Below are positions 29,417 to 36,106 of a DNA stretch of 64,000 nucleotides, one piece after another; position 1 is the first letter of the stretch, and each line of letters opens with the position of its first letter. This stretch comes from Brevundimonas sp. A19_0. Lineage in GTDB: Bacteria > Pseudomonadota > Alphaproteobacteria > Caulobacterales > Caulobacteraceae. The stretch spans positions 1 through 64,000 of the forward strand of contig NZ_JAGHQP010000003.1 in NCBI RefSeq assembly GCF_017744255.1, read 5' to 3'. The notes under the pieces are model-generated. The model made no database searches. It worked only from the letters and a program-made list of their open reading frames with translations, and had not been told where the DNA came from. A program made the translations under genes and the position numbers.

Positions 29417-29503
<87 letters not shown>

Positions 29504-29604: not shown

Positions 29605-30396
29605 TCAGTCCGGCGCCAGCCGCGCCGCCCGCCGCGCGGCATGTTCCTCCGGCAGGGGCAGGCCCGCCGCCTCCAGCGCCGCCTCCAGCGCTTCCACCCG
29701 CCGCTCCAGCGCCTGACGCCGGAAATGCACCGACTCCAGCCACTGGTTCTGTCCCGCCCGCCTCTGCCAATAGGCCCGCTTCAGCGCATAGTCCGGCTGG
29801 GCCTCGCCCGCATCCGGGTCCACGGCAAACCGCTCGCCCAGGGCCGCGCCGTCCATCTCCAGAATTCCGAGGATCAGCGACAGGGGCGCCGTCCCGGGCG
29901 TCAGCCCGGCTCCAGCCCGACCGGGTCCGCCCCCGCCCCCGAGACCGCCCTCGCCCTCGCGCGCCGCCAGGCGCTGATAGGTCTCGGCCAGCGCCGCCAG
30001 CGCCCGCGCCTCGGCCCACAGCCGCCCGCGCATCGCCCGCCCCGAGGCCACCGTCGCCATCCGCGCCAGCGCGGCGGGGCTGCCACCTTCGGGGTCATCG
30101 ACCTTAGTCGGCGAGAACAAGTTCTTTAGTGCCCGTGATCCAACCGGGTGCAGGCCATTCGAAGCGCTAACTTCTTCCTCAACCATTCGCGCGTGGGCGC
30201 GAGAGCGAGCGTCTCCTACAGCCCTCTTTCCGCCGCAAGCGAGCGCGGCGTGGCGGTAGACGCTTCCAGGAGAGGTCTTCCACTTGGCGGCGACATCCTT
30301 GGCTGTCGCACCATTTTTATAGTCCTCAATGACCATTGCCCAAGTCTCTTCGGACAAGCGGTAGTGGGTCGAGGGCGCCTCAGGACAACGTTTCAT
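29605..30396 (-). CDS. Helix-turn-helix protein with coiled-coil C-terminus, function unknown
   Basis: A 263-residue protein. Residues 10-50 form a helix-turn-helix (VIEDYKNGATAKDVAAKWKT, then SPGSVYRHA) like those of terminase small subunits and resolvases. Residues about 105-150 and 210-250 are Ala/Arg/Glu-rich helices, the last a coiled coil (RRVEALEAALEAAGLP). The first 90 codons are clearly lower in GC than the rest, a step near position 30,100, so the gene may be a recombination product at an island edge. It is divergent from the MrcB_N/NOV_C gene. Confidence 0.6.
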   Translation of the reverse strand: MKRCPEAPSTHYRLSEETWAMVIEDYKNGATAKDVAAKWKTSPGSVYRHAALACGGKRAVGDARSRAHARMVEEEVSASNGLHPVGSRALKNLFSPTKVDDPEGGSPAALARMATVASGRAMRGRLWAEARALAALAETYQRLAAREGEGGLGGGGGPGRAGAGLTPGTAPLSLILGILEMDGAALGERFAVDPDAGEAQPDYALKRAYWQRRAGQNQWLESVHFRRQALERRVEALEAALEAAGLPLPEEHAARRAARLAPD

Positions 30397-30702
30397 GTCC
30401 CTAGTCTAACGGCGCTCAGACGGTCGCCGGACTTGGCGCCAAAATTGGGCGTGAAAGAGCCCTGCAGAGCCGAATCGACGTGCTCAATTAAATATTATCC
30501 TTGGCGCTTGCAGAGCGATGAATCGTGCACCGGACCACGGTCCGAGGTGGAACCAGCGCCATCCAAGTCTCGCAACTCGCTTCGCTGGGCGCTAACCTTC
30601 AGTTGGTACACCTGACGTCAATGCCTATCGTGGATAGGCAATTGCCTCGTGATTCGATGCGATTTGTACCGATCTCGTGTGCCGGAGACGGGAGGGGCGA
30701 GG
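30397..30702. other. Divergent intergenic region of the accessory patch
   Basis: This 306-nt gap is lower in GC than the chromosome and contains the TTGGCGCCAA palindrome at 30433-30442, an AT-rich stretch near 30485-30500 and the inverted repeat at 30623-30639. It must hold promoters for the genes on both sides. No gene was found in it. Confidence 0.6.
30623..30639. promoter_or_regulatory. Inverted repeat upstream of the MrcB_N/NOV_C gene
   Basis: GCCTATC (30623-30629) and GATAGGC (30633-30639) are perfect arms around GTG, 63 nt before the likely TTG start. It may be an operator or a small hairpin in the leader. Confidence 0.4.
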
Positions 30703-31788
30703 TTGCAGGAAACGCTGCAGGGAATTCTGGATCTCCAGAGGCACTACAGTTCGGCGGATACGCCGGAGATGCGTCTCAGGGGCAAGCTCGTGCGAGACCG
30801 ACTCTGCAGCGAAATCACGCGCGTCGCATCAAACATCGAGAATGCCCTAGGCCAATACGGGACCGATCTCGCGGTTCAAGGCAGTGACGGCGCTGGCCGA
30901 AAGGCCATCGTGCCGTGGACACGCATCTTCTCTAGGCATATGTCCCCCAGCGCCACCGTCGGCTGGTATCTCGTCTTTCTGTTCCACCCAGATGGGGACG
31001 GTGTGTCTCTGTGTTTGAGCCACGGTTCGACAATCCCGAAGGATGGCAACTTCAAATCGCGGAGTAGGGCAGAAGCCGAACGCCTGATGGAGTGGGCCTC
31101 TGCAGTCGTAGGTGCCGACTTCGCGTCGGAGATGGACGTTCGACGAGGCGTGGAGCTGGGCAGCCAAAGGCTCGCTGCCGCCTATGAGCGGACCACCTTG
31201 TTATCAAGGTTCTACCCTCGCTTTGCTATTCCCAAGGACGACGTACTACTGGACGACATCGTTGCGTTTGCAACTATGTTGGCGCGGCTCTATGCGGCGC
31301 AGGATGCAGGCCTTACGCCCGGTGCGTCCAGCCCCGCCGTAACCGAGGTTTTGCAGGTCTCTGAGGGTCTCGCTGCCCCCTTTAAGTTTGCTGGTCGCGG
31401 TCAAGGATGGGGCTTAGATCACGCAGGCAGGATCGCAGTTGAACATCAGGCAATGAAGATCGCCGAAACGTGGCTTGCCGAGCAGATGTTCGCCTATCAG
31501 GATGTGTCTTCCACTGACAGTTGTGATTTCCGTGCCTCGCGCGATGGCGAGCAATGGGTGATCGAAGTGAAGGGCACGACGGGCTCAGCGGGAAGTGTTC
31601 TCGTCACCCGCAATGAGGTGGCCCTTCACAAGGCATGCCACCCAAAAAATGCGCTGCTTATTGTGCACAGCATCGAACTGAGCGCCGATGGCCGTTCAGC
31701 TACGGGTGGGAAACTTCGGGCGATCTGCCCATGGAAGGTCGATGACGACCGATTGCATCCCACGGCCTACGAGTATCGATTGGAATAG
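30703..31788 (+). CDS. Stand-alone MrcB_N plus NOV_C (DUF3883) protein, candidate restriction nuclease
   Basis: A 361-residue protein with two recognisable parts. Residues about 10-205 resemble the MrcB-like N-terminal domain (DUF3578): IVPWTRIF, GWYLVFLF, the LCLSHGST strand, and the end AIPKDDVLLDDIVAFATMLA. Residues about 250-345 resemble the C-terminal NO VEIN domain (DUF3883) with a PD-(D/E)XK-like site: Asp275, then Glu288-Val-Lys290 in WVIEVKGTTG. Such domains occur in modification-dependent restriction and defence proteins. Here no AAA+ GTPase or McrC-like gene is adjacent. TTG 30703 was chosen because GGAGGGG ends 5 nt upstream (GGAGG spaced 7 nt); an in-frame GTG at 30649 is the alternative. 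Lower GC than the flanks suggests horizontal transfer. Confidence 0.7.
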   Translation: MQETLQGILDLQRHYSSADTPEMRLRGKLVRDRLCSEITRVASNIENALGQYGTDLAVQGSDGAGRKAIVPWTRIFSRHMSPSATVGWYLVFLFHPDGDGVSLCLSHGSTIPKDGNFKSRSRAEAERLMEWASAVVGADFASEMDVRRGVELGSQRLAAAYERTTLLSRFYPRFAIPKDDVLLDDIVAFATMLARLYAAQDAGLTPGASSPAVTEVLQVSEGLAAPFKFAGRGQGWGLDHAGRIAVEHQAMKIAETWLAEQMFAYQDVSSTDSCDFRASRDGEQWVIEVKGTTGSAGSVLVTRNEVALHKACHPKNALLIVHSIELSADGRSATGGKLRAICPWKVDDDRLHPTAYEYRLE

Positions 31789-32174
31789 TGAGGCCAGTCG
31801 AAACGGATCAGGTCATACTTCTCCGCGAACCACGCCACGAAGGCCTCCGGCGTTTCGCGGTCACGCCAGTGCCGCGTCAACTCTTCCTCGCTCAAGCCCG
31901 CATCATCTGTGCCGATGCACCAGTCGCGCTTCATGATGCGATCGACGTCCGCCACCCACGCTGCCAGTTCGGGAGCAACTTCTTCATGCAGGCCCATTCG
32001 GAGAGTCTGCTGGCGCTTGGCATCGTCTGCAACCAACCAGAGGTGAGTACCTCTGTGCCCTTGAATCTTGAAAACAATGAAGTCGGCCTTGTCGGAGCAC
32101 GCTCGTTGCGCCGAACTCGAGCGGTCTCTGCTCGAGTAGCCTCCCAGCAGGCGACACCGCGCCAGACCCCTCAC
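31767..32174 (-). CDS. Protein of unknown function overlapping both neighbours
   Basis: A 135-residue reading frame that begins at GTG 32174, overlapping the TGA of the EAL gene in a GTGA junction. It ends inside the 3' end of the convergent MrcB_N/NOV_C gene (22-nt overlap). The first 28 residues are Ser/Arg-rich and may not be translated; the rest (FIVFKIQGHRGTHLWLVADD, later AFVAWFAEKYDLIRFDW) looks like a soluble globular protein. No family was recognised. Composition resembles the accessory patch. No other in-frame start is visible near the N-terminus. Confidence 0.5.
   Translation of the reverse strand: MRGLARCRLLGGYSSRDRSSSAQRACSDKADFIVFKIQGHRGTHLWLVADDAKRQQTLRMGLHEEVAPELAAWVADVDRIMKRDWCIGTDDAGLSEEELTRHWRDRETPEAFVAWFAEKYDLIRFDWPHYSNRYS
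32115..32137. repeat. Perfect inverted repeat, possible operator
   Basis: ACTCGAGC (32115-32122) and GCTCGAGT (32130-32137) flank a 7-nt spacer. It lies within the first codons of the 135-codon frame, which leaves open that those codons are really a regulatory region. Confidence 0.4.
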
Positions 32175-34285: not shown

Positions 34286-36106
34286 TCAATCCTCATCCAT
34301 CTTGAGCGCGGCGATGAAGGCTTCCTGCGGGATTTCGACCTTGCCGAACTGGCGCATGCGCTTCTTGCCGGCCTTTTGCTTCTCCAGCAGCTTCTTCTTG
34401 CGGGTGGCGTCGCCGCCGTAGCATTTCGAGGTCACGTCCTTGCGGAGCGCGCGGACGGTTTCGCGGGCGATGATCTTGCCGCCGATGGCGGCCTGGATCG
34501 GGATCTGGAACAGATGGGGCGGGATCAGCTCCTTCATCTTTTCCACCATGCCGCGGCCGCGGGTCTCGGCGCGGGCGCGGTGTACCAGCATCGACAGGGC
34601 GTCGACCGGCTCGGCATTGACCAGGATGTTCATCTTGACCAGATCGCCGACCTTGTAGTCGGTCAGCTCGTAATCGAAGCTGGCATAGCCCTTCGAGATC
34701 GACTTCAGCCGGTCGTAGAAGTCGAAGACCACCTCGTTCAGCGGCAGCTCATAGACCACCAGGGCGCGGGCGCCGACATAGGACAGCTCGACCTGCTGGC
34801 CGCGGCGGTCCTGACACAGTTTGATGACGCCGCCCAGGTATTCGTCGGGGGTCAGGATGGTGGCCTTGATCCACGGCTCCGAGATGGTCTCGATCTGCAT
34901 CACGTCGGGCAGGTCGGCCGGATTGTGCAGGTCGATAGTGGTGCCGTCGCGCAGGCCGATCTTGTAGACCACCGAGGGGGCGGTCGCGATCAGGTCGAGG
35001 TTGAACTCGCGGCTGAGGCGCTCCTGGATGATCTCGAGGTGCAGCAGGCCGAGGAACCCGCAGCGGAAGCCGAAGCCGAGGGCGGCACTGGATTCCATCT
35101 CATAGGTGAAGCTGGCGTCGTTCAGGCGCAGGCGGGCGATGGCGGCGCGCAGGTCCTCGAAGTCGGCGGCATCGACCGGGAACAGGCCGCAGAAGACCAC
35201 CGACTGGACTTCCTTGAAGCCCTTGAGCGGGGTGTCGGTGGGGCGTTTTTCGTCCGTGATGGTGTCGCCGACGGCGGCGTGGGCGACTTCCTTGATCTGG
35301 GCGGTGATGAAGCCGACCTCGCCCGGGCCAAGGCTCTCGACCGGGGTATTCTTGGGCAGGAAGACGCCGACGCGGTCGACCAGGTGGGTCGAGCCGTTCT
35401 GCATGAATTTGACGCGCTGGCCGGCGCGCAGGTGTCCGTCGAAGACCCGGACCAGCAGGATCACGCCGAGGTAGGGGTCGTACCAGGCATCGACCAGCAT
35501 GGCCTTGAGCGGGGCGTCCGGGTCGCCCTTGGGGGCCGGCAGGCGGGTGACGATGGCTTCCAGTACATCCTCGATGCCGATGCCGGACTTGGCCGAACAG
35601 AGGACGGCGTCCGAGGCGTCGATGCCGATCACATCCTCGATCTGTTCGCGGACCCGCTCGGGCTCGGCCGCCGGCAGGTCGATCTTGTTCAGGACGGGGA
35701 CGATCTCGTGGTCGTTATCGATGGCCTGATAGACGTTCGCGAGGGTCTGGGCCTCGACCCCCTGCGACGCGTCGACCACCAGGATCGAACCCTCGCAGGC
35801 GGCCAGCGAGCGGGAGACTTCGTAGGCGAAATCGACGTGGCCGGGCGTGTCCATCAGGTTCAGGACGTAATCCAGCCCGTCCTTCGCCTTGTAGTGCAGG
35901 CGCACGGTCTGGGCCTTGATGGTGATCCCGCGCTCCTGCTCGATTTCCATATTATCAAGCACCTGTTCCCGCATTTCCCGCGCGGTCAGGCCCCCGGTGA
36001 ACTGGATCAACCGGTCAGAAAGCGTTGATTTTCCATGATCAATGTGCGCAACGACGGAGAAGTTGCGGATGCGGTCGATCGGCGGAGTCGGGGGCTGGGT
36101 GCTCAT
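34286..36106 (-). CDS. lepA: Elongation factor 4 (LepA)
   Basis: A 606-residue ribosome-dependent GTPase thought to act in initiation/assembly or back-translocation. G1 HIDHGKST, G3 DTPGHVDF and G4 NKID are clear, followed by EF-G-like domains II, III and V and the LepA-specific C-terminal domain with [19 protein letters not shown]. Length is normal. It is monocistronic, convergent with the serine hydrolase and divergent from the RND operon. Confidence 0.97.

Follow-up and report, generated by a model that had tools for sequence, protein, structure and literature searches.

The gene described here joins an McrB-N-type reader domain to a NOV_C, PD-(D/E)XK-like domain in one polypeptide, and on balance its product is probably a single-chain, motor-free, type IV-like restriction enzyme. 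The gene lies in the window, which is the whole stretch of 64,000 nucleotides of Brevundimonas sp. A19_0 DNA that was analysed (Table 1). A preliminary description had proposed a stand-alone, single-gene, modification-dependent nuclease acquired horizontally beside a tRNA gene. Both domains, the nuclease site, the absence of a neighbouring motor and the atypical composition stand, and some relatives have restriction genes in the corresponding genomic slot. The tRNA gives no evidence of site-specific integration, and the single-gene status is uncertain.

Table 1. Position and basis of the features discussed
Feature	Position	Strand	Basis or remark
HTH-like gene flanking the slot	29605..30396	-	Pfam matches below cut-off
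Low-GC patch with fusion gene and small gene	30200..32170	.	200-base GC profile; edges of the putative acquired segment are approximate
MrcB_N-NOV_C fusion CDS, 361 aa	30703..31788	+	TTG start, Pfam, homologue alignment
McrB-N-like reader domain, residues 1-207	30703..31323	+	Pfam, VIA-align Z 11.8, profile alignment to 3ssc, residue counts
NOV_C / PD-(D/E)XK-like nuclease domain, residues 240-354	31420..31764	+	Pfam, fold neighbours, conservation
Convergent small gene, 76 aa from ATG, possible partner	31767..31997	-	Shares 22 bases with the 3' end of the nuclease gene
lepA, conserved gene that anchors the variable slot	34286..36106	-	Comparison with relatives

The fusion gene, its domains and its predicted fold

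The reading frame, start and motifs of the gene are the same as in the preliminary description. A Shine-Dalgarno-like stretch, GGGAGGGG, was seen by eye just 5' of the TTG start (30703), and three Brevundimonas homologues align from residue 1. In a whole-genome search the gene is the sole match in its own genome. Its GC content is 58.6% versus 68.2% for the window, and its GC3 is 65% versus 87% for the EAL gene and 90% for lepA, which confirms the low GC noted for the patch. The copy of the sister species Brevundimonas poindexterae (L044) differs by 8 synonymous and 8 non-synonymous changes, and given the resulting dN/dS of approximately 0.31 the gene appears intact and maintained. The tRNA gene said to adjoin it is present, as a tRNA-Leu at 29417-29503, but it is 1.2 kb away with one gene in between. 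No repeat of pieces of this tRNA of at least 12 bases was found within 28.0-36.5 kb; a tRNA-borne integrative element was rejected on this ground, and evidence of an att site or of site-specific integration is absent given that the pieces do not recur.

Both proposed domains exceed their gathering scores in Pfam: PF12102 (MrcB_N) matches residues 40-195 with 90.9 bits against a cut-off of 25, and PF13020 (NOV_C) matches residues 250-322 with 28.4 bits against 22.1. At E 0.001, MrcB_N is detected in 46 of the 46 full-length members of the family and NOV_C in 45. No AAA family was found in the fusion protein at E 1 in Pfam, neither NCBIfam nor PHROGs gave a match for it, and phmmer against the PDB returned nothing at E 1. 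PADLOC gave only weak matches, to TmtA and HmaA, confined to the C-terminal domain; these profiles differ from the window protein in having 1176-1782 positions, and HmaA is described as a helicase. The PADLOC profile PDC-S36 did not match the window protein at E 1.

In the AlphaFold2 model of the fusion (pLDDT 83.8, pTM 0.59), two parts are predicted well, and the stretch that links them, residues 220-236, is weak. The first part has an McrB-N fold (best Z 11.8) and the second a PD-(D/E)XK-like fold (best Z 8.9). For the reader half, the first rank in Foldseek is McrB-N (3ssc, E 1.6e-3), and residues 1-207 align with McrB-N with a VIA-align Z of up to 11.8 and an rmsd of 3.5 A over 146 residues. 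Given that a putative protein (2a8e, Z 11.2) and a DUF1054 protein (3mqz, Z 10.9) score almost as high, the reader fold cannot by itself name the function. Nearly all fold neighbours of residues 235-354 are endo- or exonucleases with folds of the PD-(D/E)XK type or related to it; they include SPARDA chains (Z 8.9), Hjc (Z 8.8), RecU and several endonucleases, that of tRNA splicing among them. This half has middling scores, with Z below 9 and Foldseek E values of at least 0.1 that rank under rows of the unrelated PcyA (approximately 0.03).

The single match of the family profile among PDB sequences is McrB-N (E 0.28), and the profile alignment to 3ssc pairs W72, Y89 and L93 with W49, Y64 and L68 of McrB, the McrB numbers being counted off the printed alignment. 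W72 and L93 occur in 46 of the 46 full-length members and Y89 in 45. Given that Y89 and L93 are located inside one of the two patterns that found 43 of these members, the search itself accounts for part of their conservation; by eye, however, W, Y and L are also present in the nine MrcB_N proteins that came up independently of that pattern. For Y41 of McrB, termed non-conserved in PMC3874153, there is no conserved counterpart, position 64 being T in 26 members, A in 6 and one of eight other residues in 14. The region 240-345 has 29 charged residues if His is counted, of which exactly five never vary in 46/46, namely E247, D275, E288, K290 and E305, all of them outside the search patterns. The first four form the E...D...(D/E)xK site of PD-(D/E)XK enzymes, which means that the D...E-x-K site reported previously is present and is kept in all 46 full-length members.

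Relatives of the fusion protein

Of the 398 genomes searched in the order Caulobacterales, 14 contain a match. Four of the matches are full length, including that of the window's genome, one (G369) is partial and covers residues 106-357, and the other nine comprise six MrcB_N proteins (L019, L020, L022-L025), which measure 287-333 aa and end in what looks by eye like an HNH domain, two McrB-like proteins (L021, with AAA_5 in Pfam, and L026, by eye) and one short match (L027). A four-sequence alignment scanned against a collection of genomes of 84,980 species gave 52 loci, in 44 of which the match exceeds 330 residues within one ORF. The alignment of full-length sequences (A2) contains 46 members, with the window protein, L016 and L017 added. 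Left out were L067, L086 and L093, where the match spans the protein but the ORFs read were short; L089, L090, L091, L094 and L095, which have the reader only, are partial or are built differently; and L015 and L051, which are duplicates. The members belong to Pseudomonadota and Actinomycetota, and in the tree a supported branch splits the 10 proteobacterial rows (Brevundimonas, Mesorhizobium, Sphingomonadaceae and Stenotrophomonas) from the 36 Actinomycetota rows.

The same reader domain is joined to AAA_5 in L021 and L091, and in L089 the reader gene precedes a McrC-like gene with DUF2357 and PDDEXK_7. In a Nocardia (L094 9638-12229), MrcB_N is fused to KAP_NTPase, a KAP-family P-loop NTPase, which is a motor unlike that of McrB.

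No tblastn match to the fusion was found in phage records, and the 15 plasmid records with matches are partial, none covering 80%. Viral contigs gave no match to a single-sequence query and one copy (43%, L175 6001-7035) to a family-alignment query. This copy is near an N6_N4_Mtase gene, has D instead of E247 and gives no NOV_C score at E 0.001. In two actinobacteria the fusion adjoins NaeI and a C5-methylase (L064 13244-15575 and L078 11238-13519, by Pfam), in L071 it adjoins a Schlafen-group-3 helicase gene, and in three Streptomyces copies a UvrD-like gene adjoins it by eye. In seven Lentzea the fusion gene occupies one constant site among ordinary genes.

This stable single-site inheritance, together with the fold similarity of the nuclease half to Hjc and RecU, would fit a nuclease that processes or repairs DNA, in the manner of Holliday-junction or mismatch enzymes, and does not act in defence. 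Such a function is very unlikely for the fusion, given its patchy presence (4 full-length copies in the 398 genomes of the order), its atypical GC, the restriction genes found in its slot in relatives and the viral-contig copy.

The lepA slot and the convergent small gene

The fusion gene and the small gene lie between the HTH-like gene and the EAL gene, in the stretch before lepA. Among the scanned neighbours (HTH-like, small and EAL genes) there is no AAA+ motor or McrC-like gene, and no methylase gene was found among the adjacent genes scanned by Pfam. The previous statement that neither a motor nor a second subunit is adjacent is therefore correct for an AAA+ motor and McrC, but has to be qualified by the conserved 76-aa gene that overlaps the 3' end. 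Several further Brevundimonas carry relatives of the HTH-like gene close to this slot, for example L099, L100, L102, L155 and L168.

The content of the slot varies. In the close relative G002, whose LepA is 98% identical, a NOV_C relative of type B (44%) is found in the lepA stretch instead, together with a GmrSD_N gene. Twenty lepA-side stretches were taken, one of which (L164) held just 1 kb, and seven had been chosen for prior NOV_C or C5-methylase matches near lepA (G002, G344, G353, G554, G566, G641 and G648). Restriction-type genes are present in all seven preselected stretches and in two of the 12 usable others (G607 and G007), while the remaining ten were assessed visually on the opening residues of each ORF. 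The genes confirmed by Pfam are NaeI (G353), EcoRII, Vsr and C5-methylase (G566), Vsr (G554), MvaI/BcnI (G648), GmrSD_N (G002), HSDR_N (G607, whose slot also holds a type B NOV_C) and C5-methylase (G007). In the neighbour lists, gaps in the gene calls were filled with the longest ORFs, and these lists may hold false ORFs. The lepA slot is a restriction hotspot that is not always occupied, the enrichment being descriptive, and the Brevundimonas slot is a place to seek further restriction systems. The context favours restriction: the low-GC slot carries restriction genes in some other Brevundimonas, and one relative of the fusion is on a viral contig. Ten of the 12 non-preselected stretches are without such genes, and the Lentzea copies sit among ordinary genes.

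In the stretch 3' of lepA in Brevundimonas (L097-L107, L155-L174), HNH_2 genes are also seen in some species, and in others there are none of these restriction-type genes. NaeI, which adjoins the fusion in L064 and L078, also sits in a Brevundimonas lepA slot (L167).

The type B NOV_C protein of G602 corresponds to the PADLOC candidate PDC-S36 (E 6.9e-98), its NOV_C part resembles PD-T4-1 (E 1.6e-12), and relatives of 47-65% identity are found near lepA in six genomes. PDC-S36 is like the window protein in its NOV_C nuclease domain, single gene, lepA slot and, in some loci, small gene, and differs from it in the N-terminal domain.

Homologues of the small gene occur in 16 of 299 Caulobacteraceae genomes and in one of 152 genomes sampled from the class, which is the window's own. 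All 16 are within 263 bp of a match to a nuclease-type gene, which is the fusion in 4 loci, a type B NOV_C in 8 and an HNH_2 protein in 6 (in L106 only a 33.7% match over 82 residues), with two loci having both. In 12 of the 16 loci lepA is within the fetched stretch, and none was seen in that of L016, L017, L101 and L108. The small gene is coding and under purifying selection, with pN below pS in 119 of 120 pairs. The model of its product has three helices (pLDDT 78.4), and a fold comparison with the PDB gave nothing below E 5; the protein has no match in PHROGs, and a longer 135-aa form gives only sub-threshold Pfam matches, to DNApolII_N and CbtA_toxin. The tblastn matches of the small protein to Serratia plasmids (E 0.002-0.005) are too weak to use and could be chance; in the two plasmids inspected they are 67-aa ORFs beside relaxase genes (L176 2462-2665 and L177 2456-2659).

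Given this conserved convergent gene, the single-gene status claimed previously is uncertain. A two-gene unit, in which the 76-aa protein would either be required as a specificity factor or restrain the nuclease as an immunity protein in a toxin-antitoxin-like manner, is a fairly unlikely alternative. The proximity of 16 out of 16 small genes (299 family genomes) to nucleases of three architectures, the presence of the small gene in all four Brevundimonas fusion carriers from the order search and its purifying selection argue for such a unit. The common location beside lepA, found for 12 of the 16, could be a partial confounder that explains part of the pairing. Furthermore, among fusion loci the small-gene cluster is confined to Brevundimonas, with none in relatives outside Caulobacteraceae; the Brevundimonas copy L045 is without it, and only five of the ten type B NOV_C genes matched nearly full length in the genus have it. 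The small gene provides a concrete candidate for a partner in common, and it is a tentative, rather doubtful proposal that, in a modular two-gene restriction unit, a small helical protein (approximately 50-80 aa) may be the common partner or immunity protein of the single-chain MrcB_N-NOV_C, NOV_C type B/PDC-S36 and HNH_2 nucleases that swap at the lepA slot of Caulobacteraceae.

Putative mode of action and comparison with known systems

As a single-chain, motor-free restriction enzyme, the protein would use its McrB-N-type domain to inspect a base flipped out of the DNA, most likely a modified cytosine, the putative target chemistry being suggested by the nature of the reader domain. A flexible linker (approximately residues 207-239) would position the C-terminal NOV_C domain, which would cut the DNA nearby through an E/D/ExK site with bound metal, and would probably do so either in dimeric form or across two sites. 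Given that a GTPase motor is absent, the action would be like that of MspJI-, SRA-HNH- or EVE-nuclease-type enzymes and not like that of McrBC. The 76-aa product of the convergent gene may act as a regulator or as an immunity protein in Caulobacteraceae. The NaeI and methylase neighbours, the viral-contig copy, the lepA slot and the likeness to PDC-S36 count for a restriction enzyme with a putative role in phage defence, and the single site in Lentzea, the 2 of 12 lepA stretches, the middling nuclease fold and the C5-methylases count against it.

A C5-methylase match is present in 40 of the 45 carrier genomes searched (of 46 carriers, the L045 genome being left out) and in 127 of 131 genomes of the genus. 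For the four carriers of the genus, the sister species (G052) has none, the window's genome and G027 have one each and G347 has two. The single PF00145 match of the window's genome is a 302-aa ORF on another contig (L096 1462-2370), in a phage-like stretch with an adjoining phage-portal-like ORF, by eye. Given the 40 of 45, an enzyme that cuts any 5mC would be suicidal in most carriers and is unlikely. An exclusion of C5-methylases from carriers, as expected under a simple 5mC reading, was not found in either count. The counts leave room for an enzyme that cuts 5mC in limited contexts, for one that reads cytosine in hydroxymethylated, glucosylated or N4-methylated form, or for an enzyme blocked by modification. 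According to PMC3874153, a glucosylated base does not fit into the pocket of E. coli McrB-N, which would count against a glucosylated target if the pockets are alike. By analogy with McrB, the putative cleavage would be modification dependent.

An enzyme of the modification-blocked, type II-like kind would instead cut unmodified sequence, with the host protected by a resident C5-methylase, adjoining or elsewhere. The matches in 40 of the 45 carriers searched would agree with this, as would the C5-methylases within approximately 6 kb of four of the 46 family loci (L054, L061, L064 and L078, the last two tested with Pfam). However, at L064 and L078 the adjoining methylases come with a REase of their own, NaeI, the carrier G052 is without a PF00145 match and the window's genome has only the one ORF in the phage-like stretch. 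Where studied, McrB-N is a reader of modified bases (PMC3874153), and this alternative is unlikely.

For the preferred reading, a motor-free type IV-like enzyme, the closest comparison on the reader side is McrBC of E. coli. Its reader, named ADAM/DUF3578 in PMC11090510, is of the same Pfam family, with a fold Z of 11.8 and W49, Y64 and L68 kept. The window protein differs in being without the AAA+ GTPase and McrC and in having a fused nuclease of NOV_C type; given that both the AAA+ domain and McrC are absent, membership of McrBC was ruled out. The organization is like that of the EVE-PD(D/E)XK and EVE-HNH fusions, motor-free and putatively type IV (PMC7641849), and of SRA-HNH and MspJI-type enzymes, all of which combine a modified-base reader and a nuclease in a single chain without a motor. 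These have a reader of the PUA superfamily, whereas that of the window protein is McrB-N and its nuclease is NOV_C. Winged-helix fusions are further motor-free examples of a reader with a nuclease (PMC11037411).

A motor-free fusion of a modified-base reader with a PD-(D/E)XK or HNH nuclease is thus an already known kind. No description of the MrcB_N-NOV_C pairing was found in a partial literature search that covered few subscription papers. If the reading is true, an McrB reader would work without a GTPase motor, fused directly to a PD-(D/E)XK-type nuclease, and would provide a compact defence gene and a small tool enzyme for modified DNA. NOV_C (DUF3883), so far a predicted REase module and termed a novel REase domain in PMC3710099, would gain its simplest testable form.

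Within the order, the six MrcB_N proteins with an HNH-like end share with the window protein the same reader and the lack of a motor, and differ in the C-terminal domain, which was recognized as HNH by eye only. The one that was scanned (L019) has MrcB_N alone in Pfam and a weak match to REase_II in PADLOC.
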